Shown: one piece after another, positions 2,798 through 58,942 of the stretch | How positions within the stretch are numbered: the stretch's first letter is position 1 | Layout: every line of letters starts with the position of its first letter | Assembly (NCBI RefSeq): GCF_038024125.1 | Contig: NZ_CP150662.1 | Span: 947,501 to 1,011,500 of the forward strand | Direction: 5' to 3' | DNA from: Polaribacter gangjinensis | Lineage (GTDB): Bacteria > Bacteroidota > Bacteroidia > Flavobacteriales > Flavobacteriaceae | Length of the DNA: 64,000 bases | Position numbers and translations under genes: made by a program | The notes under the pieces: generated by a model | What the model was told of the DNA's origin: nothing | Database searches by the model: none | What the model saw: the letters and a program-made list of their open reading frames with translations, nothing else

Positions 2798-3973
2798 TTG
2801 AATGCCAATATTTTACTTGAAGAATCACAACAATTTATAAAAAATCATTTATACGATGATCTAACTAAATTGATTTTTAAAGGAAGTCCAATCGCAGGAG
2901 TTTCCATTCAAGAATTGGCAAATCAAATTGTAGCGAAAAACAAATCAGAAAAAAAATTACCCACTTGGTTTTCGCAAGAAAAAATCTATTATCCTGAGAA
3001 AATTAGCATTGAACAAACTTCATCAGAAATCACTGCCAACTACAAATCAAAATTAGTTTCAGGAAAAAAATTGATTGATATTACAGGTGGATTTGGAGTA
3101 GATTGTTACTATTTTTCTAAACAAATTTCAGAAGTATTTCATTGTGAAATTGTCCCTGACTTATCAACAATTGTGGCGCATAATTATCAACAATTAAATG
3201 CAAAAAATATAACCACAATTTCGGGTAATGGAATTGATTATTTAGAAAAAACCAATGATTTTTTTGATTGGATTTACATAGATCCATCAAGAAGAAACGA
3301 TCACAAAGAAAAAGTGTTTTTATTGAAAGATTGTTTGCCTGACGTTACAAAATATTTGGATTTTCTATTTACAAAAACCAATCAAATTCTCATCAAAGTT
3401 TCTCCGATTTTAGATATCACAAACACCATAAATGAGTTAAAATTTGTTTCAGAAATTCATATTATCGCTGTTCAAAACGAGGTAAAAGAGTTACTTTATT
3501 TGATTAATAAAAATTCAACTAAAGAAATTAAAATATTAACTATCAATATTTTAAATACCGAAAATCAAAAATTTGATTTTTTTATCAACAATCAAATAAC
3601 AGCAAAGTATAACTTACCTCTCTCCTATTTATACGAACCAAATGCAGCTATTTTAAAGTCAGGTGGATTTGACCAAATTGGCACTGAATTCAATCTTTTT
3701 AAACTACATAAACATTCACATTTATACACTTCAAACTCATTGATTGATTTTCCTGGAAGACGTTTTAAAATTGAAAATATTTTTAAATACGATAAAAAGA
3801 TTTTTAAGAAATTGATTCCAGAAAATAAAGCAAATATTACTACTAGAAATTTCCCAAAAACTGTGGCTCAAATTCGAAAAGAAACCAACCTAAAAGATGG
3901 TGGAAATTTGTATCTTTTTTTCACAACAGATATAAACGAAAAGCTAATATGTTTATTAACAAAAAAATGTTAA
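2798..3973 (+). CDS. Class I SAM-dependent methyltransferase, THUMP-like
   Basis: A 391-residue protein with a Rossmann methyltransferase core. Motif I is LIDITGGFGVDCYYF (about residues 91-105), the acidic strand-2 position falls in FHCEIVP, and the catalytic-type motif is IYIDPSRR (about residues 164-171). The C-terminal portion, with a PGRRFKIENIF segment, resembles the THUMP-like domain of this Bacteroidetes family; a nucleic acid substrate is likely but not shown. No ATG lies near the conserved N-terminus, so the TTG at 2798 is the best start. It lies 5 bases after the permease stop, consistent with an operon. Confidence 0.82.
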   Translation: MNANILLEESQQFIKNHLYDDLTKLIFKGSPIAGVSIQELANQIVAKNKSEKKLPTWFSQEKIYYPEKISIEQTSSEITANYKSKLVSGKKLIDITGGFGVDCYYFSKQISEVFHCEIVPDLSTIVAHNYQQLNAKNITTISGNGIDYLEKTNDFFDWIYIDPSRRNDHKEKVFLLKDCLPDVTKYLDFLFTKTNQILIKVSPILDITNTINELKFVSEIHIIAVQNEVKELLYLINKNSTKEIKILTINILNTENQKFDFFINNQITAKYNLPLSYLYEPNAAILKSGGFDQIGTEFNLFKLHKHSHLYTSNSLIDFPGRRFKIENIFKYDKKIFKKLIPENKANITTRNFPKTVAQIRKETNLKDGGNLYLFFTTDINEKLICLLTKKC

Positions 3974-4121: not shown

Positions 4122-4167
4122 GGCTACACTTTTTTCACTAAGTTTGTATAAAATGCTGTAATATTTT

Positions 4168-4962
4168 ATGCAATCACACATTTATCAAGGAATAAAAATC
4201 ACAAGAAATTCTCATCAAGTCTTTGAAGATGAATTGGTGGTTGAAGCGCCTCTTCAAATAAACATCAACAATGAACCTTATACGGTCGTAATGAGAACTC
4301 CTGATGATGATATGGAATTGGTTAGAGGATTGCTATTTGCAGAGGATATTTATAAAAGTGTCGTCAATTTTAATTTTTCAATTATTGAATCTCAAAACTC
4401 AATTCCAACAATTGTAAATGTTACAATTCCTGATAACAATCTTGGAAAAGGGTATTTAAATAAAAGAACACTTCTTTCCGTTTCTTCTTGCGGAATTTGT
4501 GGTAAAAAAGAATTAAAAGATATTGAAATTTCTGGAGAAAAATTTGAGAAAAATCAAGCAATTTCTCTTGAAAAAAAACAAGAAATGTATTCAAAAATGA
4601 GTTCATTTCAACATAATTTCAAAAAAACAGGAGGAAGTCATGCTGCTGCAATTTTTGATGAAAAAAACCAACTTTTAAGCATCAAAGAAGATATTGGTAG
4701 ACACAATGCAGTTGACAAAGTTATTGGTGATTTACTTCAAAAAAATCATTTAAAAAAAGCTCAATTTTTATTAGTGAGTGGCAGAGTTTCCTATGAAATT
4801 GTCACCAAAGCTTTTATTGCAAAAATTCCTATTATTGTAGCAGTTTCAGCATGTTCTTCATTAGCAGTTGATTTTGCAAAAGAATTTGGAATTTGTCTAA
4901 TAGGTTTTACAAGAGAAGATAAAATGACAGTGTATGCGAATCCAAATTTAAAAACTACGTAA
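4168..4962 (+). CDS. fdhD: Formate dehydrogenase accessory sulfurtransferase FdhD
   Basis: A 264-residue protein of the FdhD family. In E. coli, FdhD passes sulfur from IscS to the molybdenum cofactor and is needed for active formate dehydrogenase. The sulfur-carrying CxxC motif is present in SSCGICG (C108 and C111), as are RTPDDDMELVRGLLFAE (residues 43-59), KTGGSHAAA, EDIGRHNAVDK and SGRVSYEIVTKA, all conserved in the family. The next gene begins one base after the stop and encodes a molybdopterin oxidoreductase, its expected client. Confidence 0.95.
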   Translation: MQSHIYQGIKITRNSHQVFEDELVVEAPLQININNEPYTVVMRTPDDDMELVRGLLFAEDIYKSVVNFNFSIIESQNSIPTIVNVTIPDNNLGKGYLNKRTLLSVSSCGICGKKELKDIEISGEKFEKNQAISLEKKQEMYSKMSSFQHNFKKTGGSHAAAIFDEKNQLLSIKEDIGRHNAVDKVIGDLLQKNHLKKAQFLLVSGRVSYEIVTKAFIAKIPIIVAVSACSSLAVDFAKEFGICLIGFTREDKMTVYANPNLKTT

Positions 4963-38855: not shown

Positions 38856-38967
38856 TGACCCGTCCTAAAATAACTATATGACCCGTCCTAAAATAACTAT
38901 ACAGGTTATTAAATAAATCCTATTATAGTTATACAAATATAAATTTTAATCCTAAACGAACTATACA
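38856..38967. repeat. Duplicated IS end and 32-base-spaced end boxes
   Basis: Bases 38856-38878 repeat the element's left tip exactly (TGACCCGTCCTAAAATAACT and on). An 18-base box, TCCT-N10-TACA, occurs at 38886-38903, 38918-38935 and 38950-38967, spaced by exactly 32 bases. A fourth copy, on the other strand, sits at 40426-40443 at the far end. Likely transposase-binding sites. The last box overlaps the OrfB stop. Confidence 0.75.
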
Positions 38968-39863
38968 TCTGTTTTTTCATGATTAAAATTTTTATAATAT
39001 TTTTTCCATCGTTTGTTTAATTTCTCTGATTGCAAATGTGCTTGATTCGGAGTTAAATAATCACAACTTGCATGAGGTCTTAATTCATTATAAGACTTTA
39101 TACTTTTGTTAACTTGAGACCCTGTTTGTTCAAAACCTAAGGAACTAGCGTAAAGATTAAACTCTGTTTTAATGATCCCATTTACTCTTTCTGCCAATGC
39201 ATTTTCATAGGGATCTCCATTTTCGGTCATGCTAATACCAATGTTGTTTTTTAGTAATAAATCAACATAATTGTGTGAACAATACTGTGAACCTCTATCA
39301 GAATGATGAATGATTGATTCCTTATACAGTCTATTATTCAGAGCCATTTTTAATGCATTTATACATCCCTCTGCTGCTAAGTCCTGACGAAAACTATATC
39401 CCATTATTTTTCTAGAATTAGCATCCGTTATTAAACTTAGATAGCCCCATTGGTTGGGTAATCGAATATAAGTAATATCACTAACCCAAACTTGCTCTGG
39501 TCTTGTTATATCAACCTCTTTTATTAGATTACTATACTTTCTCATCCAATGTCTAGAATCGGTTGTTATCGCTTTTCTTTTTCTTTGACGAATTAGCAAT
39601 TTATGTTCTGACAATAAATCAAATAAATAATCTCGACCAAAGGTTATTTGATGTGACGTCAACTTGTTTTGCAATACATAATGTAATTTTCTCGTTCCTA
39701 GCCTTGGTAAGTGTTTCCTTATGTTAAGTACTTCCTGAAGGATGATATCTTCTTTGACTAAACTACTTTCTTTTCGCCATAAACAATCGTAATAGGCATG
39801 CCTTGTTTTGCCAAACAATCGACATAAAACAGCTATTCCTAACTTAGGAAAGTCTTGTTTCAT
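38961..39863 (-). CDS. IS3-family transposase OrfB (DDE integrase domain)
   Basis: A 300-residue catalytic half of the transposase. It has an HTH_21 helical segment (about residues 35-95) and an rve integrase core. The DDE triad is visible as D in WVSDITYIRL, D in IHHSDRGSQYCS and E in YENALAERVNGIIK. OrfB is normally made as an OrfAB fusion: at A AAAAAG (39887-39893), a slip of one base joins OrfA to codons reading VWCQTVLRMKQDF into this frame. The frame is intact, so the element may be active. Confidence 0.93.
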   Translation of the reverse strand: MKQDFPKLGIAVLCRLFGKTRHAYYDCLWRKESSLVKEDIILQEVLNIRKHLPRLGTRKLHYVLQNKLTSHQITFGRDYLFDLLSEHKLLIRQRKRKAITTDSRHWMRKYSNLIKEVDITRPEQVWVSDITYIRLPNQWGYLSLITDANSRKIMGYSFRQDLAAEGCINALKMALNNRLYKESIIHHSDRGSQYCSHNYVDLLLKNNIGISMTENGDPYENALAERVNGIIKTEFNLYASSLGFEQTGSQVNKSIKSYNELRPHASCDYLTPNQAHLQSEKLNKRWKKYYKNFNHEKTDV

Positions 39864-39865
39864 TC

Positions 39866-40417
39866 TTAAGACTGTTTGGCACCAGACTTTTTTCTAATCT
39901 CAATTTTGAGTTGTTCTTCAGCCACATCAATGAGCGTGTTCAGGGCTTTAATTTTAAGCTCTGCTTCTTGTAAAGCTTTTTGCAGAGCTTCTTTCTCTAT
40001 TTCATTTGAAGATGATCTATCTTGAGTCATTGCAGAAGTATTTGCAGTACAAATCTCGACTTTTTCTGATTTAAACTGTAGAATCCAGCCACGAATTATT
40101 TTTTCTGTTTTAATATTATAAGCTATTTTAGCTTCTTTTACATTGAATCTACCCTGTTCTATAGCACTTACAATGGTACGTTTTTCAAGCTTTGTATAAC
40201 TTCTTCGTTTGATAGTTTCTTGATATTTGTTCGAGCCATACTCGCGCATCCAGGAACTTATGGAATTCTTACCTAAGTCATAAATCCGGGTGGCTTCTTT
40301 TCTGGGCAAGCCATTTTCAACTTCTTGTACAATCTTTAAAATTAAACGCTTGTCATAACGACTTTGTTTGTTGTCGCGTTTTGCATAAATCTCTTGTTCT
40401 TCGTGTTTCATATACAC
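39866..40417 (-). CDS. IS3-family transposase OrfA (helix-turn-helix)
   Basis: A 183-residue DNA-binding half. Helix-turn-helix segments (SRYDKRLILKIVQEVENGLP and ATRIYDLGKNSISSWMREYG, at about residues 18-65) are followed by a coiled coil, EIEKEALQKALQEAELKIKA (about residues 138-157), of leucine-zipper type used for multimerisation. It ends RKKSGAKQS; the AGA AAA AAG codons form the in-frame slippery site. It is longer than many OrfA proteins, with two HTH units in a row. Confidence 0.9.
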   Translation of the reverse strand: MYMKHEEQEIYAKRDNKQSRYDKRLILKIVQEVENGLPRKEATRIYDLGKNSISSWMREYGSNKYQETIKRRSYTKLEKRTIVSAIEQGRFNVKEAKIAYNIKTEKIIRGWILQFKSEKVEICTANTSAMTQDRSSSNEIEKEALQKALQEAELKIKALNTLIDVAEEQLKIEIRKKSGAKQS

Positions 40418-41215: not shown

Positions 41216-44200
41216 ATGATAAAAAAATTACTTACCATTTTATTTGTTATCACTAACCTTGCAATTTCTTCACAAAACTTTACAGTAAATATTGAGAACT
41301 TGAAAGAAGGTGATTCTGTAACAGTAATTGCAATACAAAGTTCAGATAAGTTTTACAAAAAATGGGTAAAAAGTTCAGATACCCCAAATGCAGCTACTTT
41401 TAATTTATCTACAGGCGATTGGGCTATTAAAATAGATGCGACTGGTTACACCTACCCTTCGCAAAAAGTAGTTACTATTCCTAATGATGTATCGGCAACG
41501 TTTGCTTTAACAGAAATGATGGGTGGTAACTATACATATAATTGGGTAGATGATGATTCTGCTGCAGGCCATGCAACACAATCTTACATTGCAGAACCTA
41601 CGGAGATTATAGTTTTAAATGATACGATATCTGTACCAACAGATTTTTCTTCTATAAAATTAAGGACTGAATATGGTGTCATATTGTCTGATGATAAGGA
41701 AAAGTGGACGAATGAGGATGCATATAGGTTATACAAAATGTTTTCAAATTTACCTTATCATAAATTTGGAGAGGGAAGCACTTTAGATTATATTACAGGC
41801 ACAAATATTAGAGGTGTATTTTATTTATCTAAAGATGAAATTTACGAAGATATTTCTATTGAAAAAAAAGAGGGAATTCCGCATGCAACCGTTAGTCAAA
41901 GTGCATTTACCTATGCAGAGCCACAAATTGTTAAAATAGATGGTATACGAGGTAAGTTTTTTTCTAAAAGATTGTACCATGCTGTGGTAAACTTTATTAC
42001 CGATTTTGCGAATAATGAGGAAGTTTTAAATTGGTTGGCTAGAGAGCGTTTTGGAATACAATTTTTAAAACCATCTGATTTTAGCGGAGCTTTTCAAGAA
42101 GAAAATGGAACCTTTATGGGAGATGATAAATCCAACTTTCAAGAATTTTATAAGACCGAAAAGTTAGAGATTTTAGCCATGTTCGAAGAATTACCAGAAG
42201 GTTTTCACAAACAAGAAGGACTGCAATACCTTGCAAGAAGAATCGATGGTCAAGACCATCCAGACCCAGCGTATAGAGAAGCTGCTGCTATTGCTTGGAC
42301 AGGCTTAAAAACCATAGAATTTATGAGCAAAGCCTTTATCAGTGGTAATTTAAGTGATGTAAGACGTTTGATACTTCATGAAAAAGCACACTTTTTATGG
42401 GAATACACTTTTGATGATAAAACAAAAGATGATTGGGCTGAGATTGGAGGATGGTTTCAAGACCCTACTTCTGCCTCTGGTTGGTCTACTTATAATACCA
42501 CCGAGTTTGTTTCTGCTTACGCGCACTCAAAAAACCCAAATGAAGATATGGCCGAATCTATTGCCATTTATTTGACCAACCCTGATAGACTTATTAATGT
42601 TTCTCAGAAAAAATATGAATTCATAAGAGATCGTATCATGCATGGTACACGCTACATATCTCTTATTAGAGAAGATTTAACCTTTACCGTATACAATTTA
42701 TACCCAGATTATACTTTTCCAGGAAAAATTGTAGAACTTGATTTAGTAGTTGAAGGAGGATCAGAGGAAGATAAAAAAGTGACTATGAAAATTCGGTTAA
42801 ATTCTAATGACCCTGCCATAGATGGAGCAAAACAAGGTTATGTTCGCTTTTCATCTTCCATAGGAACTGTTTTTGATATTGGCTTACATGCTCAAAACGG
42901 AGATTTAGACTCAGTTTTAGTTGGTTCTTCAACGTTGAGTAAATTTGCTAAATCTGGTTATTGGAGTTTAGCTAGTTTAAGAACTTGGGATAAAGTGGGC
43001 AATCAAAGGTTTGAAAACACCTCAACAGTTGGAGCAAAATTATTTATAGAAAACCCTTTAGAAGATATAGTACCTCCAAAATTTTTAGAATTTAAAATGT
43101 CAGTTATAGATAGTACTTTTAATTCTAATAAAGAAATAGACCCTAGTGGAGAACTTGGGCAAGCTATAAAATTAGAAGATAAATGGGAAGAGCCTCTCTT
43201 GGTTAGTGGCAATGGAGCAACTTACAGAATAGACTTTCCTAACCCAGATCAAGCCGAAACTTATTTCAAAGAATCGAGAACTGTAATGAAAGAACCAGAA
43301 GCATTAATTAAACAAGGAACTGGGTTCTTCTTTATAGAAGATTATTATCCTTCTGGTTATTATAGTGTAACAAACGCTTATACAGGAGATCAAGCAGGCA
43401 ATCTTAGTTGGGTAAATTTTTCAAATGACCCTGCTAATAATGGCTGGGCTAATGGGATTAATAGCTTTTCTGCTTTAAAAGACAGTGTTTATGTATCAAC
43501 CAAATATCCAGATATTAGAAAACCAGAAATAGACCTAAACAATATTAAAGTAATTGCTGAGCCTACCAACCCACAAGCACCCAATGGAGAAACAAGAGTA
43601 GATATTAATTTTAATGCAAGAGATTTGTCTGATTTTCCAGGGCATGAGGCAGGGGTTTATCTAGTTGATCTCACTTTAAGAGATCCTCAAGGCAAGAAAT
43701 TTGGTTATCAAACGGGCAATTCAACCATGAATCATCCTGATCTTAACCCAGGAGATACAGAACCCGTTTTAGATTCGCTATGGCGAAATTATCGGTTTGA
43801 CTTAACATTACCAGTAGGCTCTGCACCAGGCTTATGGGGGATTTCTGATATTGTTATCCGTGATAAAGTAGGAAATACAAAAAGTTATAATTTTGAAGAA
43901 TATATACGATTTGACATTATTGCTTCTGACATTGTTTTAGAGGTTCCTTTAGAGGTAGAAATTATCGATAAGGTGATTAATGCTGGAAATGTGGACTCCG
44001 TAAAAGCAAAAATGTCCTGCAAGCCTTGTATGAATCTAAATTATGTTGCAACTATTTATTCTCGTTTTGGAGGAGGATCAGTAGTGAGAAGTGAAGGAGT
44101 ATTAAGTGCAGATGAGGTTATAGTAGAAAACTTAAATACTACTGGTATTTTAGATGGAGAAGTTAATTTAACTGTACAACTTACAGATGCTGAAGATAGA

Positions 44201-44839
44201 TTAGTAGCTACAAAAACGACAGCATACACAAAAGATGTAATTTACCCAAAAGCCTATTATTCTAGAACAAATTTAGAAAATAATGGCAGTAGCTCTTTAG
44301 ACGATTTTGTTATTGATGTAGTTGTGGAGTCTGTAGATGTTGGAGGAAGTTATCAATTAAATATAAATAACAATAATTCCCCTAAATCCAATTCTCAAGT
44401 CAATGAATTACAATTAGAGGGAGTTCTACTTGCTGAATCAAACACAATAGAAAATATAGCGTTAGAAACTTTAGAGAATGGTGTTTATAAGTTTGAATTG
44501 ATAGTTACTGATCCAAATGGTAACGTAGGTGAACCCGAACTACTTTATTACAAAAAAGAAGGGAATTTAATTACTCTTTTAGGATCGGTTTTAAGTACAG
44601 ATGATTTCAGTAGTATTGGTTTTAAAAGCTATCCAAACCCATTTAAAGATTATATTATTATTAATAGCTCTAAAACATTTCTACTTGAAGTATTTGATAT
44701 TTCAGGAAGGTCTATTATGAAATATCAAATTATAGAAGGTATAAATACAATTGATGTGAATAAGTTATCTAAAGGTTCTTATATTTTTACATATACCAAT
44801 TTAAACTACTCAAAAAATCAATTACTTATCAAAAACTAA
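41216..44839 (+). CDS. Large secreted putative zinc peptidase with T9SS sorting domain
   Basis: A 1207-residue protein with a signal peptide (MIKKLLTILFVITNLAISSQ). The gluzincin-like motif is HEKAH (H388, E389, H392) in LILHEKAHFLWEYTF, with a candidate third ligand E447 in NPNEDMAESIAIYL, 55 residues on; the loop before it (STYNTTEFVSAYAH) is like that of lethal-factor-type zincins. Beta-sandwich repeats follow to about residue 1110. The last 75 residues (FKSYPNPFKDYIIINSS, LEVFDISGRSIMKYQI, LSKGSYIFTYTN) are a type A T9SS sorting domain, cleaved during export to the cell surface. I do not recognise a named peptidase family. It is monocistronic and lies in accessory DNA. Confidence 0.8.
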   Translation: MIKKLLTILFVITNLAISSQNFTVNIENLKEGDSVTVIAIQSSDKFYKKWVKSSDTPNAATFNLSTGDWAIKIDATGYTYPSQKVVTIPNDVSATFALTEMMGGNYTYNWVDDDSAAGHATQSYIAEPTEIIVLNDTISVPTDFSSIKLRTEYGVILSDDKEKWTNEDAYRLYKMFSNLPYHKFGEGSTLDYITGTNIRGVFYLSKDEIYEDISIEKKEGIPHATVSQSAFTYAEPQIVKIDGIRGKFFSKRLYHAVVNFITDFANNEEVLNWLARERFGIQFLKPSDFSGAFQEENGTFMGDDKSNFQEFYKTEKLEILAMFEELPEGFHKQEGLQYLARRIDGQDHPDPAYREAAAIAWTGLKTIEFMSKAFISGNLSDVRRLILHEKAHFLWEYTFDDKTKDDWAEIGGWFQDPTSASGWSTYNTTEFVSAYAHSKNPNEDMAESIAIYLTNPDRLINVSQKKYEFIRDRIMHGTRYISLIREDLTFTVYNLYPDYTFPGKIVELDLVVEGGSEEDKKVTMKIRLNSNDPAIDGAKQGYVRFSSSIGTVFDIGLHAQNGDLDSVLVGSSTLSKFAKSGYWSLASLRTWDKVGNQRFENTSTVGAKLFIENPLEDIVPPKFLEFKMSVIDSTFNSNKEIDPSGELGQAIKLEDKWEEPLLVSGNGATYRIDFPNPDQAETYFKESRTVMKEPEALIKQGTGFFFIEDYYPSGYYSVTNAYTGDQAGNLSWVNFSNDPANNGWANGINSFSALKDSVYVSTKYPDIRKPEIDLNNIKVIAEPTNPQAPNGETRVDINFNARDLSDFPGHEAGVYLVDLTLRDPQGKKFGYQTGNSTMNHPDLNPGDTEPVLDSLWRNYRFDLTLPVGSAPGLWGISDIVIRDKVGNTKSYNFEEYIRFDIIASDIVLEVPLEVEIIDKVINAGNVDSVKAKMSCKPCMNLNYVATIYSRFGGGSVVRSEGVLSADEVIVENLNTTGILDGEVNLTVQLTDAEDRLVATKTTAYTKDVIYPKAYYSRTNLENNGSSSLDDFVIDVVVESVDVGGSYQLNINNNNSPKSNSQVNELQLEGVLLAESNTIENIALETLENGVYKFELIVTDPNGNVGEPELLYYKKEGNLITLLGSVLSTDDFSSIGFKSYPNPFKDYIIINSSKTFLLEVFDISGRSIMKYQIIEGINTIDVNKLSKGSYIFTYTNLNYSKNQLLIKN

Positions 44840-45012: not shown

Positions 45013-45030
45013 CTAATACTAATTTCACTA

Positions 45031-45063
45031 AAAACTCATTGCATTAATGCAATGAGTTTTTTT
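45031..45063. terminator. Perfect-palindrome terminator
   Basis: AAAACTCATTGCATT (45031-45045) is followed directly by AATGCAATGAGTTTT (45046-45060), then T residues to 45064. Terminates the T9SS peptidase transcript; A-tract on the other side may serve the minus strand too. Confidence 0.88.
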
Positions 45064-45216
45064 TAGGCAGCTGATACTTATTGATAAGTTTATAAGAAGC
45101 AAACTTTACTTCTTCTAAAAAAATATTTTAGTAAAAAATCTTATTGTTTTACTTAACACTGCCTTGTATTTGATTTCAATTAGTTAGCTTTTTACTGTCG
45201 ATTTACAGTTCTTAAA

Positions 45217-45618
45217 TTATTTTATGTGGAAATTTAATAAATTAGAGTGAATCTCTTGTAGAATTGAATTACGGGTATCCTCTTTGTTTTCAATGGTATC
45301 AGGCCAAAACAAATTCCAGTAGTAATTTAATAATTCAAAAACATCATCCTTTTCTTTGGCAACTCGAAAAAGATATAAATCATATCGTTCAGAAAAATAA
45401 TCATCATCAAATTCGTCATTTGTTTTACTTAATTCCCTATGAACAAAAGGAAATCCATCAATTTCATATTTATTGTCCTCGCAATAAGTAATTAATAATT
45501 CATTGACTGCTTGTTCAAAATATTCAGCATTTTTAAAATCACTTAAACTCTCTCCAACAGATGACCATTTTTTATGCAGTTCAATTATTTCTTGTTTGAT
45601 TTCGTCAATTGATTTCAT
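45217..45618 (-). CDS. Small acidic protein of the four-gene operon, unknown
   Basis: A 133-residue, acidic protein with no signal or membrane segment. It starts MKSIDEIKQEIIELHKKWSS and has a central HRELSKTNDEFDDDYFSERYDLYLFRV (in part: DEFDDDYFSERYDLY). No family is recognised. It is the last gene of the run from 48870, 44 bases after the SLOG-like gene. Its acidic, helical make-up would suit an immunity, inhibitor or adaptor role, but this is only inference. Confidence 0.6.
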   Translation of the reverse strand: MKSIDEIKQEIIELHKKWSSVGESLSDFKNAEYFEQAVNELLITYCEDNKYEIDGFPFVHRELSKTNDEFDDDYFSERYDLYLFRVAKEKDDVFELLNYYWNLFWPDTIENKEDTRNSILQEIHSNLLNFHIK

Positions 45619-45662
45619 TTTTTTGCTTGATTAATTTTAAATATTTTGACCAACAAATGATT

Positions 45663-46250
45663 TTATTCTAACCAATTAAAGTAAGTTTCTTGGGTAAATA
45701 ATGGAATGGCATTGTTTATACATACCCTTTGTGTATGACCTGTTCCACCTTGCATTGGATTATTTAAATCTTCGTAAAACAAACCAACTGAAATAGGTGG
45801 TATCCCAGCTTGTGTTCCAATCACTTTTATAGTGTCTCGTAAAATATAAGCCGCTTTTATGGCATATTTATCTTTGTCTCCTGCTACATATTTTTCAACC
45901 AATGATTTAGTCCCTTTATGATTCTTTGAATGATACACAATATCGGGTTCATTTAATAAATCAATGGAATCTAAGTCGAAGATGGTTTCAGCTAAATTAT
46001 ATTTTTTACGGTGATTCACATAAGGAGTTATTACTTGCAGTTGTTTAGGACTAACACAAGCAACTCCTTGAGAAAAAAAATAATCACTACCATCAGCATT
46101 ACCACTTCTAAAAGTGGCATGTGGCATTTTTTCAGCTAATAATTTACCGATTTCAATCAGTTTTATTTTATCTTTTTCAGGAACATTTCGCTTACCCTCC
46201 AATAAAATAATACCTTTTGCATATAATTCACAAAAAGAATTCAAATCCAT
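45663..46250 (-). CDS. SLOG/DprA-like nucleotide-binding protein
   Basis: A 195-residue protein with a Rossmann-like SLOG signature: GKRNVPEKDKIKLIEIGKLL, then FRSGNADGSDYFFSQG (R48, S49, G50, D53, G54, D56). RSGxAdGxD is the ligand-binding loop of SLOG domains, which bind nucleotide-like signals and often occur in defence operons. The C-terminal half has GGTGHTQRVC, where G-T-GHT may cover a phosphate. It is 5 bases downstream of the DUF2779 gene, so the two are co-translated. The role of sensing is inferred from the family. Confidence 0.72.
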   Translation of the reverse strand: MDLNSFCELYAKGIILLEGKRNVPEKDKIKLIEIGKLLAEKMPHATFRSGNADGSDYFFSQGVACVSPKQLQVITPYVNHRKKYNLAETIFDLDSIDLLNEPDIVYHSKNHKGTKSLVEKYVAGDKDKYAIKAAYILRDTIKVIGTQAGIPPISVGLFYEDLNNPMQGGTGHTQRVCINNAIPLFTQETYFNWLE

Positions 46251-46255
46251 TTTAA

Positions 46256-48214
46256 TTAAATTGTAAGTTCTTTTAAATGCTCATAAATCATCACCATAGC
46301 AAGCGTATCTAATTCGCAGTATTTTAATAGTCCAGCTGTAATTTCACCTCGCTCCTTTTCGGTCATATCTTCGTATTGTAATTTTGCATATGCTGTTAAT
46401 GCAGAACCACCATCTGCAATGTTTTCAATTTCCGAAACTGTATCTTCTATTTCCTCAATATCCCAGCCTTCATAAAGTGGAGGTAACATTTTATATGGGT
46501 TAATTATTTCATTGTTTTTTATTGATAACCAAATATGGTTTCCACTAAAATTTTTGCTACTCACATTAATTTTTTCTAAACAATTTTCATATTTCTTTTT
46601 TAAAAATTCACTAGAATTTAAAGATGCTGGTAAAACTGCTTTTATGGAATTGGACCCTTTAGTATATGGATTATAATAGTAGTCCTTTACAATTACATTC
46701 AAATCAATCATTTTTCGATCTCCATCCCAAGATTCAGCACTATCTTTTTTAGATACTGTTATTGTTTTAAGAAATGAAATCAACTCCTCTTTATCAGCTT
46801 CACTTGAATTTTTAAGTTGTTGAATAATAGCATTTAATATGGAGTTTTCGTGTGTTGCAAATCGAAAAATACTTCCATCATCATGGATTAACGCCTCTTT
46901 AAGTGCTCTTGCAAATATAAAATTTGGAAACTCACCAGGTGTATTACTAATAAATTCTGTTCTGTGTTCAATTGTACCATCTTCATGATAAACATGATGT
47001 GAAAATTGGAAAGCTACTTGTTCATAAGGATGTCTATCTACTGTGAAAGGAAGCGCCACAGTACTCGTTTCAAAATCAATAAAGTGTAATGGAAAAATCC
47101 ATCGCTCCATTTCGGCTTTTAAACCTTCTTTTTCAACATAAACCGATGCATCTGCTGTTCTTGCTTTTTCAACTTGAATCCATTGTCTTTCACTTGGAGA
47201 AATTTTATTGGCAATAGGCGTGACTTTCAAATCATCTTCAGTTAAATCATCTAAAAATAAACGGTTCTCTTCTATCAAATTCCCACCTCTATAATTCCAG
47301 ATTTCCATTGCATTCGGTCTTTTAAAATCCGCATCACTCCAGTTTAATTGCTTTTTAAAACAATGCTCAAATCCAGATTTCAAACCCTGTTGCTTTTCTT
47401 CTTCAGAAGTTTTAAACTCACAGGCTTTACAATTGCTAAATTTTAATGGCCAATTTAAGTATTTCTTTTGTTTATATGCCTCCCTAAACAGCAACATTGC
47501 CTCTGAAAAATTTAAATTTTCATAATACGAAAATTTATTTTCAAGGATAGAATTGATTATACTATCTACATTTATTTCAGATAATACGGATTTACCAATT
47601 TCTTCAATTTTGGTTACTCTTTTAACGATTTCTGTTCTTGGATTGCCATTTTTTGGAACTCTAAAAAGTTGATTTAATCCATCAATTGATGCCTTTTTGG
47701 TTTTATCAGCCATCATCAAATAAGCTTCCACCTCATAACTTGGAAATGCCATTTGAACCACTTTCTTTTGAAAGGCTAAATCAAACAAATAGGGTTTCCA
47801 ACCGCTGACTAATTTACCGTTTTTGCCAATAAAAAGATAATCATCTGTAGGATTAAATGATTTGGCTTTCACCTCAATCAAACGTATTTTGTTACCTTTC
47901 TTTTCAATGATATCACAACGTACATAATAATCATTTACTGAAAAAGCTCCTTCATAAATAATCACATTATCTTTCAAAAGAGCTTTATTAGTCAAATCTA
48001 CTGGTTTGTTGTATTCAAAAGATTCAGCATCAATAAACACCCCATTTTCATAATGCAAACGAGCTAATTCTTCTACTTGAAAACCACCTTCTGCCAGCGA
48101 TTGTAAAAAGGTATCTTCTGACTTTTTATTTGCAAATGTTTTATCGTTTGTAAAATAGAGTTTGTTGGGACATTCAAGGCCTAATTTGAATAGTGATTTA
48201 GAGAGAACTCTCAT
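46256..48214 (-). CDS. DUF2779 protein: Cas4-like PD-(D/E)xK nuclease fused to a DEDD-type exonuclease domain
   Basis: A 652-residue protein of the DUF2779 family. The N-terminal half resembles Cas4/AddB nucleases: C15 (LECPNKLYF) with C262, C265 and C285 (SNCKAC and HCF) can bind a 4Fe-4S cluster, and D101 with E114-x-K116 (RLIEVKAKS) form the PD-(D/E)xK site. The C-terminal half begins LHFIDFETSTVALPF (D380, E382), the first motif of DEDD RNase H-fold exonucleases; later Asp residues such as D in YCELDTLAMVMIYEHL fit the last motif. Such enzymes would process single-stranded or damaged DNA ends. The family's function is not established. It is flanked by the UDG-like gene (11 bases upstream) and the SLOG gene. 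Confidence 0.85.
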   Translation of the reverse strand: MRVLSKSLFKLGLECPNKLYFTNDKTFANKKSEDTFLQSLAEGGFQVEELARLHYENGVFIDAESFEYNKPVDLTNKALLKDNVIIYEGAFSVNDYYVRCDIIEKKGNKIRLIEVKAKSFNPTDDYLFIGKNGKLVSGWKPYLFDLAFQKKVVQMAFPSYEVEAYLMMADKTKKASIDGLNQLFRVPKNGNPRTEIVKRVTKIEEIGKSVLSEINVDSIINSILENKFSYYENLNFSEAMLLFREAYKQKKYLNWPLKFSNCKACEFKTSEEEKQQGLKSGFEHCFKKQLNWSDADFKRPNAMEIWNYRGGNLIEENRLFLDDLTEDDLKVTPIANKISPSERQWIQVEKARTADASVYVEKEGLKAEMERWIFPLHFIDFETSTVALPFTVDRHPYEQVAFQFSHHVYHEDGTIEHRTEFISNTPGEFPNFIFARALKEALIHDDGSIFRFATHENSILNAIIQQLKNSSEADKEELISFLKTITVSKKDSAESWDGDRKMIDLNVIVKDYYYNPYTKGSNSIKAVLPASLNSSEFLKKKYENCLEKINVSSKNFSGNHIWLSIKNNEIINPYKMLPPLYEGWDIEEIEDTVSEIENIADGGSALTAYAKLQYEDMTEKERGEITAGLLKYCELDTLAMVMIYEHLKELTI

Positions 48215-48225
48215 TTTTTTTTAAT

Positions 48226-48870
48226 TCACAATTTAATTCCTAAATTATCAATAGCATTTTCAATTTCAAGGCCTAATCTTCTTTTACTCCAATCATCAAT
48301 TCGACCAATAAAACCTGATAGAACGATTGTGAAAGTATGTCCTTCAAAAGTTGATTTGTAGGACCCAACAGATTTAATTGATTTAATTGATAAGTCATCT
48401 GGAGAAAAGAAATTGAAGATAGATTCAGATGTATAAGAACCGTTACAGATTAGAAGTAAGGGTTTATGTATTAAAAGTTGATTTTTCAAGTGTTCAAAAC
48501 AATTATTAATTATCACATTTGTTTCTTTATTTGAAAGTTTTTTTGATGTTACTGGATGAGCTGGAGGAAATGAAGCAGAGCCACATTTGACCAAATCTGT
48601 ATGTGCTATTTTTGAATTTTTGCTCTCCCAATTTTCATAGAGTTTATTCGATACTTTTTTAAAATCCTTGAAGTAACTGTGGTTACTGGGTTTGAAATTT
48701 CTTAAATCATCAAATGAAGGATCAAATATTTCATTTTGATTTGTTTTTGGATTTAAGCCAATTATCCAAACTTTGGCATCTAAATTTCCTTCAATAAAAT
48801 CTGAAGGAGAATTTAAATTTGAGTTGTTGTATTCTAACCCAAATTTAGAACATTTATTACATATTATCAT
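48226..48870 (-). CDS. UDG-superfamily-like protein with four candidate Fe-S cysteines
   Basis: A 214-residue protein. VWIIGLNPKT (G38-L39-N40-P41) lines up with the uracil-DNA glycosylase motif 1, THTDLVKCGS with the family 4 strand, LLLICNGSYTSES with the LG/A strand and VLSGFIGRIDD with the region of motif 2. Family 4 UDGs bind a 4Fe-4S cluster through CxxC plus two later cysteines; here C4, C7, C96 and C124 are in that order. The catalytic residues are not those of classical UDGs, so a different base or a binding role is possible. It is the first gene of the four-gene operon. Confidence 0.6.
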   Translation of the reverse strand: MIICNKCSKFGLEYNNSNLNSPSDFIEGNLDAKVWIIGLNPKTNQNEIFDPSFDDLRNFKPSNHSYFKDFKKVSNKLYENWESKNSKIAHTDLVKCGSASFPPAHPVTSKKLSNKETNVIINNCFEHLKNQLLIHKPLLLICNGSYTSESIFNFFSPDDLSIKSIKSVGSYKSTFEGHTFTIVLSGFIGRIDDWSKRRLGLEIENAIDNLGIKL

Positions 48871-51537: not shown

Positions 51538-51924
51538 ATAATTAGCTCCATTTTATTAAATCGGTAGCAAAAAGTAGACTTATTTAAAAATAAAACTAGA
51601 GAGTCTTTTCAAAATCGTAAGTATTCCAATTTTTATTTTTAAAATCTCTCATGAAAACCAATTTAATTAGATTAAGTATCCTATAAACTAAGCATTTTTC
51701 TTTTCTATAAAATAAATCATAGATAAAATGTAAAAGCCACTACCAATATAATATAAGTAATAAGGATTGTGTTTTTTTTAATTTAGTTTGAACTTAATAC
51801 TAAAATATTTTCAAAATCAAAATAGTTTTCAACAATTAAAAAATTTATTTCTTACGGTAATTAAAGTATTATTCTGTTTACAATTTAAAGATTTATAAAT
51901 CAATTTGGTATATCTGGAAAAGAA

Positions 51925-51957
51925 AAAACCCTTTAAACGTTGAGTTTAAAGGGTTTT
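51925..51957 (+). terminator. Terminator in the 51538-52234 gap
   Basis: AAAACCCTTTAAAC (51925-51938) and GTTTAAAGGGTTTT (51944-51957) form a perfect 14-bp stem with a GTTGA loop. It lies nearly 400 bases after the last gene; the gap 51538-51924 holds no other feature that I can see. Confidence 0.7.
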
Positions 51958-51979
51958 GATTCATTTTGAAATTGTTTTC

Positions 51980-51996
51980 GCGGAGAAAGAGGGATT
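51980..51996 (-). other. Candidate attachment-site remnant: tRNA-Ser 3' end fragment
   Basis: GCGGAGAAAGAGGGATT on the plus strand is the reverse complement of AATCCCTCTTTCTCCGC, the typical end of a tRNA-Ser (T-arm 3' side plus acceptor). It differs from tRNA-Ser(GCT) at 14941, and no full tRNA can be folded here. Such fragments mark the far end of integrative elements that entered a tRNA gene. A minus-strand tRNA would put its full copy to the right of 64000. Confidence 0.5.
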
Positions 51997-52234
51997 TGTC
52001 ATCCATTTCTAACCGATTGATATTGTTGATTTTAATATCTTTTGAATTCCTAGGGTCTCGCTTTTGCATCTATAAATGACGTGCAAATTTTTCGAAATCT
52101 TATAGTACAAATCTATGAAAATTAGATGATTAAACAAAGTGATTTACTGAAATTATTGTTCATTTATTGAACTGGTTATTACTGTAAAAAGTATGTAGAA
52201 TGAAGTTTAATAATTGATACATTTTTTATAAACC

Positions 52235-55515: not shown

Positions 55516-56427
55516 CTATGTTACAGTTTCGCATTTTGAGTACGTTCGATAGTAGTTTTTCCATAATCGTTTTATTTCCTTATCCGTAAAATTATCGTGT
55601 AGTTCAGAGGGAGTTGCATTCCCAATGCTCGAATGAGGACGATCCTCGTTGTATAGCTTGACAACCGATTTCAGTATTTCTTTTGCTTTTGAAAGTGATT
55701 TTATTTCGTAATCAAACAAATATTCTCCTTTGATTATTCCGTTAACACGTTCTGCTATAGCATTTTCCAATGGATCTCCATTTTCGGTCATTGATATCTT
55801 TATGCCTTTGTTCTTTAATGTTTTCACATACCCGGAGCTGCAATATTGAGAACCTCTGTCTGAATGGTGTATAAGTCCTGTCGCTTCTGGGGTCAGCGTT
55901 TTTATAGCCATTTTTAAAGCTGCAATGCTTTCTATAGCCTCCATAGTATCTGCAACATGATAACCAACGATTTTCCTTGAATATGCATCTGTGATAAAGC
56001 TTATATAATAATGACCGCCTTTTGTCTTCCAATACGTTATGTCACTTACCCATATATGGTTGGGGCCGAGTGGTTCCAGACCTTTAATCAAATTCGGATA
56101 CTTCTTCATCCAATGGTTGGAGTTTGTTGTTATATGATATCTTTTACGCTGTTTTATGAGCAAATTATGCTCTCTGAGTAGGTCGAAAAACGCATCCCTA
56201 CCCATTTTTATATTATGTTCATTCATAAAATCTTCTAGTTTATAAAATAATTTTCGCCCACCTAAACGCTTATGATCTTTACGAATATTACTGATTCTAT
56301 CAAGCAATATCTCCTGCTCAATTAAGTCCTGTAAAACGCGTTTTTTACTTTGGTAATAAGCCTGTCTTGTTACACCAAACCAAGAGCATAAGTCGGCTAA
56401 ACCTATGCCCTTGAAGTTTTCCTTCAT
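55516..56427 (-). CDS. IS3-family transposase OrfB
   Basis: A 303-residue integrase-type catalytic half. The DDE residues are D in HIWVSDITYWKTK, D in LIHHSDRGSQYCS and E in LENAIAERVNGIIKGEYLF. The HTH_21 helices are in KGIGLADLCSWFGVTRQAYY and the following segment. It normally forms a fusion with OrfA: the slip at A AAAAAG (56451-56457) leads into AQYQAIETMKENFKGIG. Confidence 0.93.
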   Translation of the reverse strand: MKENFKGIGLADLCSWFGVTRQAYYQSKKRVLQDLIEQEILLDRISNIRKDHKRLGGRKLFYKLEDFMNEHNIKMGRDAFFDLLREHNLLIKQRKRYHITTNSNHWMKKYPNLIKGLEPLGPNHIWVSDITYWKTKGGHYYISFITDAYSRKIVGYHVADTMEAIESIAALKMAIKTLTPEATGLIHHSDRGSQYCSSGYVKTLKNKGIKISMTENGDPLENAIAERVNGIIKGEYLFDYEIKSLSKAKEILKSVVKLYNEDRPHSSIGNATPSELHDNFTDKEIKRLWKNYYRTYSKCETVT

Positions 56428-56432
56428 TGTTT

Positions 56433-56855
56433 CTATGGCTTGGTATTGTGCTTTTTTCTAATAGGAATATTAAACTCTTTCTCAGCAATATCAACCATTG
56501 TCGAAAACGCAATAGCTTTCATCTCTGCTGTTTGAAGTTGTTTTTCTAGTTCAGCTATTCGCTTTTTGAGTTTTAGCATCTCAAAATCATCCGAACTTTC
56601 CTCTTGTTGTTTTTTTTTCTTTGACATGCTAACAAAATTAGTGTTTTTCACAAACTTATCTTCAATACCAAACTTGCGCATCCACATCCCTATTTTACCA
56701 TTTTCTGTTGGATAGCCCGTATAACGCTTATAAATCGATTGTTTAGTCTCATTTCCAGACAAATAATCATCGATTATTAACTTTTTTTCATGATCTGAAA
56801 AATACAGCTTGTTGTTGCGCCATTGTCCTAAAATCACTTTGCTTTTTTCTTTCAT
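56433..56855 (-). CDS. IS3-family transposase OrfA
   Basis: A 140-residue DNA-binding half. The helix-turn-helix includes KKLIIDDYLSGNETKQSIYK (about residues 24-43) and a leucine-zipper-like coil is in FEMLKLKKRIAELEKQLQTA (about residues 91-110). It ends RKKHNTKP, with the in-frame slippery codons AGA AAA AAG. Confidence 0.9.
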   Translation of the reverse strand: MKEKSKVILGQWRNNKLYFSDHEKKLIIDDYLSGNETKQSIYKRYTGYPTENGKIGMWMRKFGIEDKFVKNTNFVSMSKKKKQQEESSDDFEMLKLKKRIAELEKQLQTAEMKAIAFSTMVDIAEKEFNIPIRKKHNTKP

Positions 56856-57711: not shown

Positions 57712-58942
57712 ATGAATGAAGATGAAATTTTTAAACTAAAAGTTCAACTAACAAACGAATACTTAAGAAGTGGTGGTACTCAAAAAATAGAAGACCCATA
57801 TTTGCTACAAGATATAATTGATTTTGATGAATTGAGACCAGAAACTACTACTAGTAGAATGAGAGCTTTTATGAATTTGCAGTTAAATATGCATTCACGA
57901 CCGCCTTTTTTTTTCAGAACAATCAGTTTCAGAGTATAAATCGCTTGTTCAAAAATCATTTTGTTTTGACCAATATGCTATTGATACAAAAGAGCAGTTT
58001 GATGAAATCTATGAAAAGTATAAAACGTCAGAAGACATTCTGTTTCGTGGTCAACGTGAAGCAAGTTGGCGTTTATACAACAGATTGCAAAGACAGTGGA
58101 TTATAGATAACCTTTATGAGAAAGGATATAGTTATCAAGAATTATTGTCAAAGTTTGTTATTGATGGAAAAGCTGATTTTGAAGAAATGATTCTTGGAAT
58201 TCTAGATGTTCATCATATTGATGTAATAAATAATATTTCAGTACTTGGCTTTTTACAACATCATGGATGTCCGACACCATTACTAGACTGGACCTATAAA
58301 TTTCAAACAGCTCTCTATTTTGGATTAGATAAATTAGAAGAAAATACTGGATCTCGTGAAATTGATAATTATTTTAGTGTTTATTTTATCAACCAAAAAG
58401 ATATGGAAGGTGGTGGGATGAGACAAGTAATGGATGACAGCCTTGATGTGTTTGATGAAGAACACTCTGCAGAAATGATTGCGAAGTATTCTAAGGATGA
58501 AGCTCAACGCTTAGAAATGACAGAACATTTTAAGGGAAGGAAGATCTTTGATAAAGATAGAATTCCTGGTTCTGGTATGATAGAATACGTAACGAGGGTT
58601 GAACATATGATAGAATTTCCACTTAGTTTCTTCAGTGACAAGGATGCGAATACTGGTTTTATATTTTCGTTAAATAATAGCAAAAATATATTGAACCAAT
58701 CTGGAGTATTTGTTTGGAATGCAAGTCCGAGCAAACCTTTGGAAGTTGTTGGTGCAGAGCTGTATTTTGCAGATAAAGAAAATGCGAATCCTGACGAGTA
58801 CAGATTTTGCGAATGCTTTAATATTAACAAAGAACTTGCATCATATATTGAGCAAAAGCTTGCTGAAGATGGAATTACTAAAGATTATATTTACCCAACA
58901 CTAGATATTGATACGTGGGGTGTTTATGAAAAAAATGTTTAA
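57712..58942 (+). pseudogene. FRG-domain protein split by a frameshift at a T9 tract
   Basis: The first frame ends at 57939. If one T of the run at 57906-57914 is removed, it joins the frame that includes SVSEYKSLVQKSFCFDQYAI, ILFRGQREASWRLYNRLQRQ and continues to 58942, giving about 409 residues. FRGQ-x3-W-L and LQHHGCPTPLLDWTYKFQTA with ALYFGL are the hallmarks of the FRG domain, a domain of unproven function often found in defence loci. The downstream part is intact. The break may be a real mutation, a phase switch or a read error. I treat it as one gene. Confidence 0.75.

Follow-up and report, generated by a model that had tools for sequence, protein, structure and literature searches.

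We analyzed a window of 64,000 nucleotides from the genome of Polaribacter gangjinensis (contig NZ_CP150662.1, positions 947,501 to 1,011,500 of the forward strand; coordinates below are those of the window unless a locus is named). The genome is a single contig of 2.94 Mb, and its host belongs to the same family as Flavobacterium. The window contains a compact cluster of four complete open reading frames (ORFs), all on the minus strand and separated by 11, 5 and 44 bases, as had been read from the sequence in the original prediction. They encode, in this order, a protein of the uracil-DNA glycosylase (UDG) superfamily, a DUF2779 nuclease, a SLOG protein and a small acidic protein. We interpret the cluster as a composite accessory operon of the defence-island type and not as one named system, with a probability of about one half. 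Its parts are a recurrent SLOG-acidic module, a DUF2779 nuclease with varying partners, and a rare UDG-superfamily protein.

48226..48870, minus strand: UDG-superfamily (UDG-like) protein, 214 amino acids (aa), first gene of the cluster
46256..48214, minus strand: DUF2779 protein, a Cas4-like PD-(D/E)XK nuclease plus a DEDD 3'-5' exonuclease-type domain, 652 aa
45663..46250, minus strand: SLOG/DprA-like protein, 195 aa
45217..45618, minus strand: acidic partner protein, 133 aa

These ORFs are genuine genes rather than chance ones, as the UDG-like, SLOG and acidic proteins have database homologues and the 652-aa protein matches PF11074.

Conserved residues of the four proteins

The UDG-like protein scores 33.3 bits with PF03167 (cut-off 24.3) and has 321 database matches at E<=1e-3, itself included, of which 42 among the best 120 form the alignment A1. 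Its predicted structure has the UDG fold and fits family-4 uracil-DNA glycosylase best, the closest structural match being S. tokodaii UDG. Four cysteines stand in the order typical of family 4 (C4, C7, C96 and C124, with C142 as a further one), C4 and C7 being nearly invariant in the 42 homologues; the Fe-S cluster itself is predicted. At the same time, the protein differs from the family-4 Fe-S UDGs in motif A, which reads GLNP in place of GEAPG or GEGPG (G38, L39 and P41 are invariant in the homologues and N40 nearly so), and it stays under the cut-offs of the family-4 models (TIGR00758, 19.8 vs 125.3 bits; NF040953, 20.9 vs 250). Closer to the C-terminus, the conserved motif SGFIGR probably occupies the place of UDG motif B.

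48850..48861, minus strand: CNKC, residues 4-7, first two of the four Fe-S-type cysteines; aligned with CKKC of 4zbx, though the segment by itself scores just 2.3 bits
48748..48759, minus strand: motif A GLNP, residues 38-41, Asn-Pro replacing GEAPG; aligned with GEAPG of 4zbx in this same 2.3-bit segment
48583..48585, minus strand: C96 (VKC), third Fe-S-type cysteine, invariant in the 42 homologues; pairs with VKC of 4zbx in a 21.7-bit segment
48499..48501, minus strand: C124, fourth Fe-S-type cysteine, invariant in the 42 homologues; pairs with the Cys in the CSPYL stretch of 4zbx, likewise in the 21.7-bit segment
48301..48318, minus strand: SGFIGR, residues 185-190, conserved C-terminal motif; G186, I188 and R190 invariant, S185, F187 and G189 nearly so

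The DUF2779 protein matches PF11074 at residues 377-523 (E 4.8e-22; 79 bits vs the cut-off of 23.3). The family has been described, in the available text of PMC3985635, as family F.17 of the RNase H-like superfamily, within the 3'-5' exonuclease clade and with a DUF83 domain, its exonuclease activity being presumed there; the window protein has the same architecture and catalytic residues, and the partner genes of the family vary between loci. The alignment A5 comprises 11 proteins, with the broken or fragmented own-genus copies from genomes G952, G953 and G930 excluded; the Comamonas copy ends before motif III, so this motif can be compared in 10 sequences only. The conservation of the nuclease, cysteine and DEDD residues supports the reading of the protein as a Cas4-like nuclease fused to a DEDD exonuclease, although a Pfam-type family search yields no separate Cas4 profile match for the N-terminal part.

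47867..47914, minus strand: PD-(D/E)XK core, D101 ... E114-V-K116; D101, E114, V115 and K116 invariant in 11 sequences
47420..47431, minus strand: CKAC, residues 262-265; the Cas4-type cysteines C15, C262, C265 and C285 invariant in 11 sequences
47069..47077, minus strand: DFE, residues 380-382, DEDD motif I; D380, F381 and E382 invariant in 11 sequences
46703-46705, minus strand: D504, DEDD motif II, invariant in 11 sequences
46304..46321, minus strand: YCELDT, residues 632-637, DEDD motif III (D636), conserved in 10/10 sequences reaching it

The SLOG protein has 1011 database matches at E<=1e-3 (itself included), and 30 of the best 120 homologues form the alignment A2. It matches PHROG 768 (DprA-like, 1.2e-8) and no Pfam SLOG family over the cut-off. 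Its predicted structure has a Rossmann fold that fits DprA, molybdenum-cofactor (Moco) carrier and LOG proteins. Compared with the SLOG superfamily (DprA, LOG, Moco carrier, the SLOG domain of ThsA), it is a stand-alone protein, accompanied by the acidic partner in some relatives.

46083..46109, minus strand: RSGNADGSD loop, residues 48-56 of the SLOG protein; R48, S49, G50, N51, A52, G54 and D56 invariant in 30 homologues

The acidic protein contains 30 Asp and Glu vs 15 Lys and Arg residues, and nine database proteins, itself included, match it at E<=1e-3. It shows no family over the cut-off; DUF5932 is the best-matching family for a set of 13 relatives (5/13 members, best E 0.0075), and no convincing solved structural relative has been found (best E 0.069). 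Thus the domain assignments of the original prediction, namely the UDG-like core with four ordered cysteines, the double nuclease, the SLOG loop and the acidic label, agree with our analysis, and structure prediction, proposed there as a check, bears out both fold calls.

Recurrence of the genes and their neighbours

Thirty other loci were read around homologues of the SLOG, DUF2779 or UDG-like proteins, with flanks up to 5-12 kb, less at contig or record ends, and gene presence was assessed by tblastn with the window proteins and by hmmsearch with profiles (loci are denoted below by L and genomes by G). Seventeen are SLOG loci: 11 in genome contigs (L024-L034), five in Flavobacterium (L076-L080) and one on a plasmid (L081). 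The DUF2779 loci comprise 10 with close relatives from the own genus (L035-L038, L064-L069) and two plasmids (L043, L044), and the single UDG-like locus is a plasmid as well (L042). Outside this set lie the contigs that carry the closest homologues, which come from lgn, jgi and ena sources.

The SLOG and acidic genes form a recurrent two-gene pair, which the original prediction had not noticed. The pair is present in 4/17 other SLOG loci, that is, in four of the five Flavobacterium loci and in none of the 12 elsewhere. In L076, L077, L078 and L079 acidic homologues with 39-43% identity (tblastn) lie shortly downstream of SLOG, and in three of these four pairs a conserved ORF of 67-69 aa stands between the two genes. 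Moreover, DUF2779 and SLOG occur together in one locus, L031, from an Aliifodinibius metagenome-assembled genome (MAG) of the phylum Balneolota, on the same strand and in the same order as in the window, with one 152-aa ORF between them. A UDG-like gene of the same family is found with any of the other three genes in none of the 30 loci, and neither tblastn nor hmmsearch finds all four genes together in any of them, the contigs of the closest homologues being outside the set. One dedicated four-gene system is therefore unsupported: conservation of the neighbourhood was the check that the original prediction proposed for such a system, and as far as the loci could be read, its outcome is negative.

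Two weaker candidates were not counted. Directly downstream of the SLOG-acidic pair of Flavobacterium G1187 (L076 4922-5857) lies a gene for a 311-aa possible UDG-superfamily protein with the stretch IMVIGMEPH. This assignment is tentative: the protein scores 14.0 bits with the A1 profile (best 7.8 among 500 shuffles and the reversed sequence), yet its Pfam UDG match of 0.0015 is under the cut-off, its hhalign probability is 9.9%, and it has one cysteine. Near DUF2779 in L035, a 105-aa ORF (3534-3851) weakly matches the SLOG profile (E 0.0011), with no SLOG found by tblastn.

The Flavobacterium pair is part of a larger module (L078 6836-9204, L079 7294-9764, L076 2962-4892), consisting of a conserved 190-205-aa protein, a cyclic-phosphate receiver (cREC, not in L076), SLOG, the 67-69-aa protein and the acidic protein. 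In L078 and L079 WYL regulators are located ~3-4 kb from the module. Two variants have been seen at the other SLOG loci: the SLOG ORF is lengthened to 305 aa in a Saprospiraceae MAG (L026 5985-6902), and a 69-aa ORF precedes SLOG in L024-L028; Pfam marks that of L024 as nucleotidyltransferase-like, and those of L025-L028 resemble it on inspection by eye.

The neighbours of the relatives were considered in a small sample, selected by homology and not compared with random neighbours. Among the Flavobacterium SLOG loci, L077, L078 and L079 contain WYL regulators, the last two of them cREC as well. L077 further holds GmrSD, type I restriction genes and a DEDD-type exonuclease (RNase_T), L079 has PDDEXK_4 (PADLOC candidate PDC-S26), and L080 encodes two ISP restriction enzymes; the only genes that could be named in L076 are those of an AAA ATPase and of the tentative UDG-like protein. 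The island of L079 also encodes a second DprA-like protein (4145-4717; Pfam DNA_processg_A 1.8e-4, under the cut-off; PADLOC ShosA 2.3e-5), ShosA having a toxin-antitoxin role. WYL and PDDEXK_4 are present in L031 too. The remaining SLOG loci were covered by an ORF listing without systematic annotation; on the Microscilla plasmid pSD15 (L081 6432-8585), SLOG comes after a pair of metallophosphoesterase genes of its own strand, the other three genes not being near.

The DUF2779 gene changes partners among the own-genus loci (nucleotide- or base-acting or signalling genes are near it in L035-L038, L064, L066 and L068), a second observation beyond the original prediction. By family search, 5/10 of these loci have a named partner. 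In G009 DUF2779 is accompanied by a WYL regulator, an oligonucleotide cyclase and E1-E2-JAB of the CBASS type (E1-E2-JAB being a mark of a CBASS subtype). In G053 a gene for a dCTP-deaminase-type protein lies 39 bases upstream (PADLOC dCTPase 8e-111; the NCBIfam anti-phage dCTP deaminase match of 2e-87 is yet under the family cut-off), and in G895 there is an AlkB-like oxygenase gene directly upstream, together with a MkoA-like helicase. An NT5C nucleotidase, assigned by Pfam, adjoins DUF2779 in G050 and is two ORFs away in G880; similar NT5C-like proteins near DUF2779 in G052 and G953 were judged by eye. Given the small, homology-selected sample without random-neighbour comparison, the recurring theme of a nuclease in the company of nucleobase enzymes should be taken as a lead. 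In three of the 10 other own-genus copies (L067, L068 and L069, from G952, G953 and G930) DUF2779 is interrupted by stops or split.

Distribution and surroundings of the cluster

In whole-genome searches, the UDG-like gene is confined to the own genome among 97 relatives and among 395 genomes of the phylum, and has been found in 0/319 Flavobacterium genomes (a set without a positive control). SLOG is likewise found in the own genome only, among 97 relatives and among 397 genomes of the family, and in 5/319 Flavobacterium genomes. The acidic gene is found in 1/97 relatives, the own genome; the 319 Flavobacterium genomes were not searched for it. DUF2779 has a match in 14/96 other relatives and close relatives in 11/166 own-genus genomes, the own and the three broken or fragmented copies counted; weaker matches in 16 further own-genus genomes (21-42% identical, covering parts of the query) were left out of this count and of the neighbour reading. 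Plasmid records yielded one UDG-like protein (Hymenobacter), one SLOG protein (Microscilla), 30 records with DUF2779, of which the best two were read, and no acidic protein. No relative was found in IMG/VR viral contigs and no SLOG relative in phage records, which were searched for SLOG only. The top identities to homologue clusters from the lgn, jgi and ena sources are 87% for UDG-like, 89% for SLOG and 86% for the acidic protein.

The flanks agree only in part with the original prediction, which had placed the cluster between an insertion sequence (IS) and a tRNA fragment. There is indeed an IS3-like element (rve + HTH) at 38961-40417, though ~4.8 kb from the cluster and separated from it by the gene of a 1207-aa secreted protein (41216-44839); a second IS3-like copy lies at 55516-56855, the transposases of the two copies being 48% identical. 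The tRNA fragment is not confirmed: ARAGORN and Rfam place the tRNAs of the window only at 14.7-15.0 kb, Rfam run with permissive settings over 44.7-53.0 kb gives no tRNA, and near the cluster the three tRNAs of the window recur only as 11-base matches. A search for attachment repeats found none. Matches of two flank proteins in eight own-genus genomes (8/8 with 27-31% identity, and 5/8, best 44%) are too distant or scattered to demonstrate an empty insertion site. Other accessory-type genes around the cluster encode an FRG-domain protein and DUF5675; the former (PF08867, 2.1e-10) lies at 58085-58942, ~9 kb past the cluster, and the FRG name is associated with toxin-type genes. A weak match to the Bacteroides small RNA BTnc005 has been observed at 51924-52050 (E 2.6e-4, far under the gathering score).

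45030..45067, no strand assigned: AT-rich, near-perfect hairpin with a T run, read off the sequence; possibly a terminator shared by the cluster and the convergent 41216-44839 gene

This hairpin is not among the terminators of the consensus scan. Compared with shuffles, the scan shows nothing outstanding, with 23 promoters (26.5 expected) and three terminators (1.5 expected, standard deviation 1.5), so it is only the gene spacing that suggests a single transcript.

Composite operon, alternatives and possible mechanism

As relatives of the SLOG, acidic and DUF2779 proteins adjoin defence genes in several cases, the role in defence or repair suggested in the original prediction is reasonable, while the proposal of one system is not upheld. 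From this gene company we infer a defence role for the cluster. UDG-superfamily proteins can serve in phage defence, as exemplified by Brig1 and Brig3, both discovered in defence islands (PMC11078745, PMC13160076, in the parts available). The window protein shares the superfamily with them, the likeness being one of description rather than direct sequence comparison. In particular, S. tokodaii UDG, the closest match of our model, is also reported as the best structural match of the anti-phage glycosylase Brig1 (available text of PMC11078745). According to the portion of PMC13160076 at hand, Brig3 has Asn-Pro in its active site (N50, required for defence, followed by P51), resembling GLNP of the window protein, and is encoded in one operon with a partner protein. 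Unlike the Brig proteins, the window protein combines four Fe-S-type cysteines with SGFIGR near the C-terminus, and its partner is a nuclease.

Several observations weigh against the composite defence operon. The acidic partner is absent at all 12 SLOG loci outside Flavobacterium and also at L080 within it. By family search, the partner of DUF2779 could not be named in G917 (where the contig ends upstream), G952 and G930; neither DUF2779 plasmid (L043, L044) has a base-acting gene adjoining, and the UDG-like locus of the Hymenobacter plasmid contains no named defence gene within 0.8 kb upstream and 10 kb downstream. PADLOC applied to the four proteins gives a sole match, JAB at E 0.085. Family-4 UDGs have a histidine in motif B, which seems to be absent here, so that the UDG-like protein need not be active. 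Moreover, the parallel with Brig3 is loose, since its core is likened to human AAG (PMC13160076, as far as available).

Thoeris has a SIR2 fusion, which the window SLOG protein lacks, and neither a SIR2 nor a TIR domain turned up when the four proteins were searched for families. The UvrD-Cas4-like ancillary nucleases of defence loci, as presented in the accessible part of PMC5704561, are fused to a UvrD helicase, whereas the window nuclease is fused to a DEDD exonuclease; that part of the paper makes no mention of DUF2779. In the literature searched (titles and abstract openings, with few subscription journals), neither the four-gene set nor the SLOG-acidic pair is described, and no name was found for the pair or for the partner-switching of DUF2779. 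Two comparative-genomics papers, searched by word, mention none of UDG, uracil, glycosylase, SLOG and DprA or Cas4-like.

The cluster could instead be one dedicated, rare four-gene defence system in which all the genes are required and whose other copies reside in contigs beyond those read. The tight spacing, the high identity of UDG-like, SLOG and acidic homologues in the lgn, jgi and ena clusters, the recurrence of both the SLOG-acidic and the DUF2779-SLOG neighbourhoods, and the tentative UDG-like protein after the pair in G1187 would all fit; still, we consider this unlikely, as the set is missing from all 30 other loci, and both DUF2779 at 10 other own-genus loci and the Hymenobacter UDG-like gene do without the other three genes. 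At the opposite extreme, the genes may be passengers gathered by chance in a variable region, each acting alone, consistent with the different partners of each gene elsewhere, the two IS3-like copies and the FRG-domain and DUF5675 genes around. This appears quite unlikely, as the four genes share a strand and stand 5-44 bases apart, the SLOG-acidic pair recurs and the DUF2779-SLOG combination reappears in another phylum.

Two further explanations concern function. The cluster might serve the host by ordinary base-excision repair where DNA is deaminated, its nuclease and DprA-like protein acting in recombination; this would agree with repair UDGs being the closest folds of the UDG-like protein and DprA being among the closest of SLOG. 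However, none of the 96 other relatives searched has the UDG-like, SLOG or acidic gene and 14 of them have a DUF2779 match, thus the cluster does not belong to the core repair functions; its motif A also departs from that of family-4 UDGs, and we regard this explanation as very improbable. Finally, SLOG and the acidic protein may be a toxin-antitoxin or enzyme-inhibitor pair beside a nuclease operon, the acidic protein neutralising the SLOG enzyme. This is doubtful, since the acidic gene is missing at 13/17 other SLOG loci, which could hardly be tolerated with a toxic enzyme, and for a toxin-antitoxin pair the gene order, with SLOG first, is unfavourable.

For the composite defence operon, the most likely mechanism can be sketched as follows, in which we infer the operon transcription, the substrates, the order of action, the SLOG ligand and the role of the acidic protein. 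The UDG-like enzyme would act on invading DNA by excising a particular base, either deaminated or modified by the phage, and so leave abasic sites; the DUF2779 protein would enter at the nicks or ends so produced and degrade the strand. The SLOG protein would bind single-stranded DNA or a nucleotide ligand and, forming a separate module with the acidic partner, either sense damage or infection or exert restraint. An Fe-S glycosylase from a UDG branch not described so far that marks invader DNA by taking out bases, a Cas4-DEDD nuclease that destroys it starting at abasic or nicked sites, and a SLOG-acidic gate would together be a new defence strategy; this full scheme is speculative, and we think it unlikely to hold.

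If it were true, DUF2779 would be a general "shredder", recruited by operon building to defence genes of various kinds, nucleobase-acting or signalling (glycosylase, dCTP deaminase, AlkB-like, nucleotidase, CBASS). Brig1 and Brig3 were discovered recently as anti-phage glycosylases, and the route from their abasic sites to the loss of phage DNA is not settled; RecBCD and other E. coli repair proteins are reported to have no effect on Brig1 immunity (PMC11078745, in the part available). A UDG-type protein coupled to its own double nuclease in one operon would make the step from abasic site to DNA loss directly testable, and the SLOG-acidic pair and the partner-switching of DUF2779 provide two more modules for testing.

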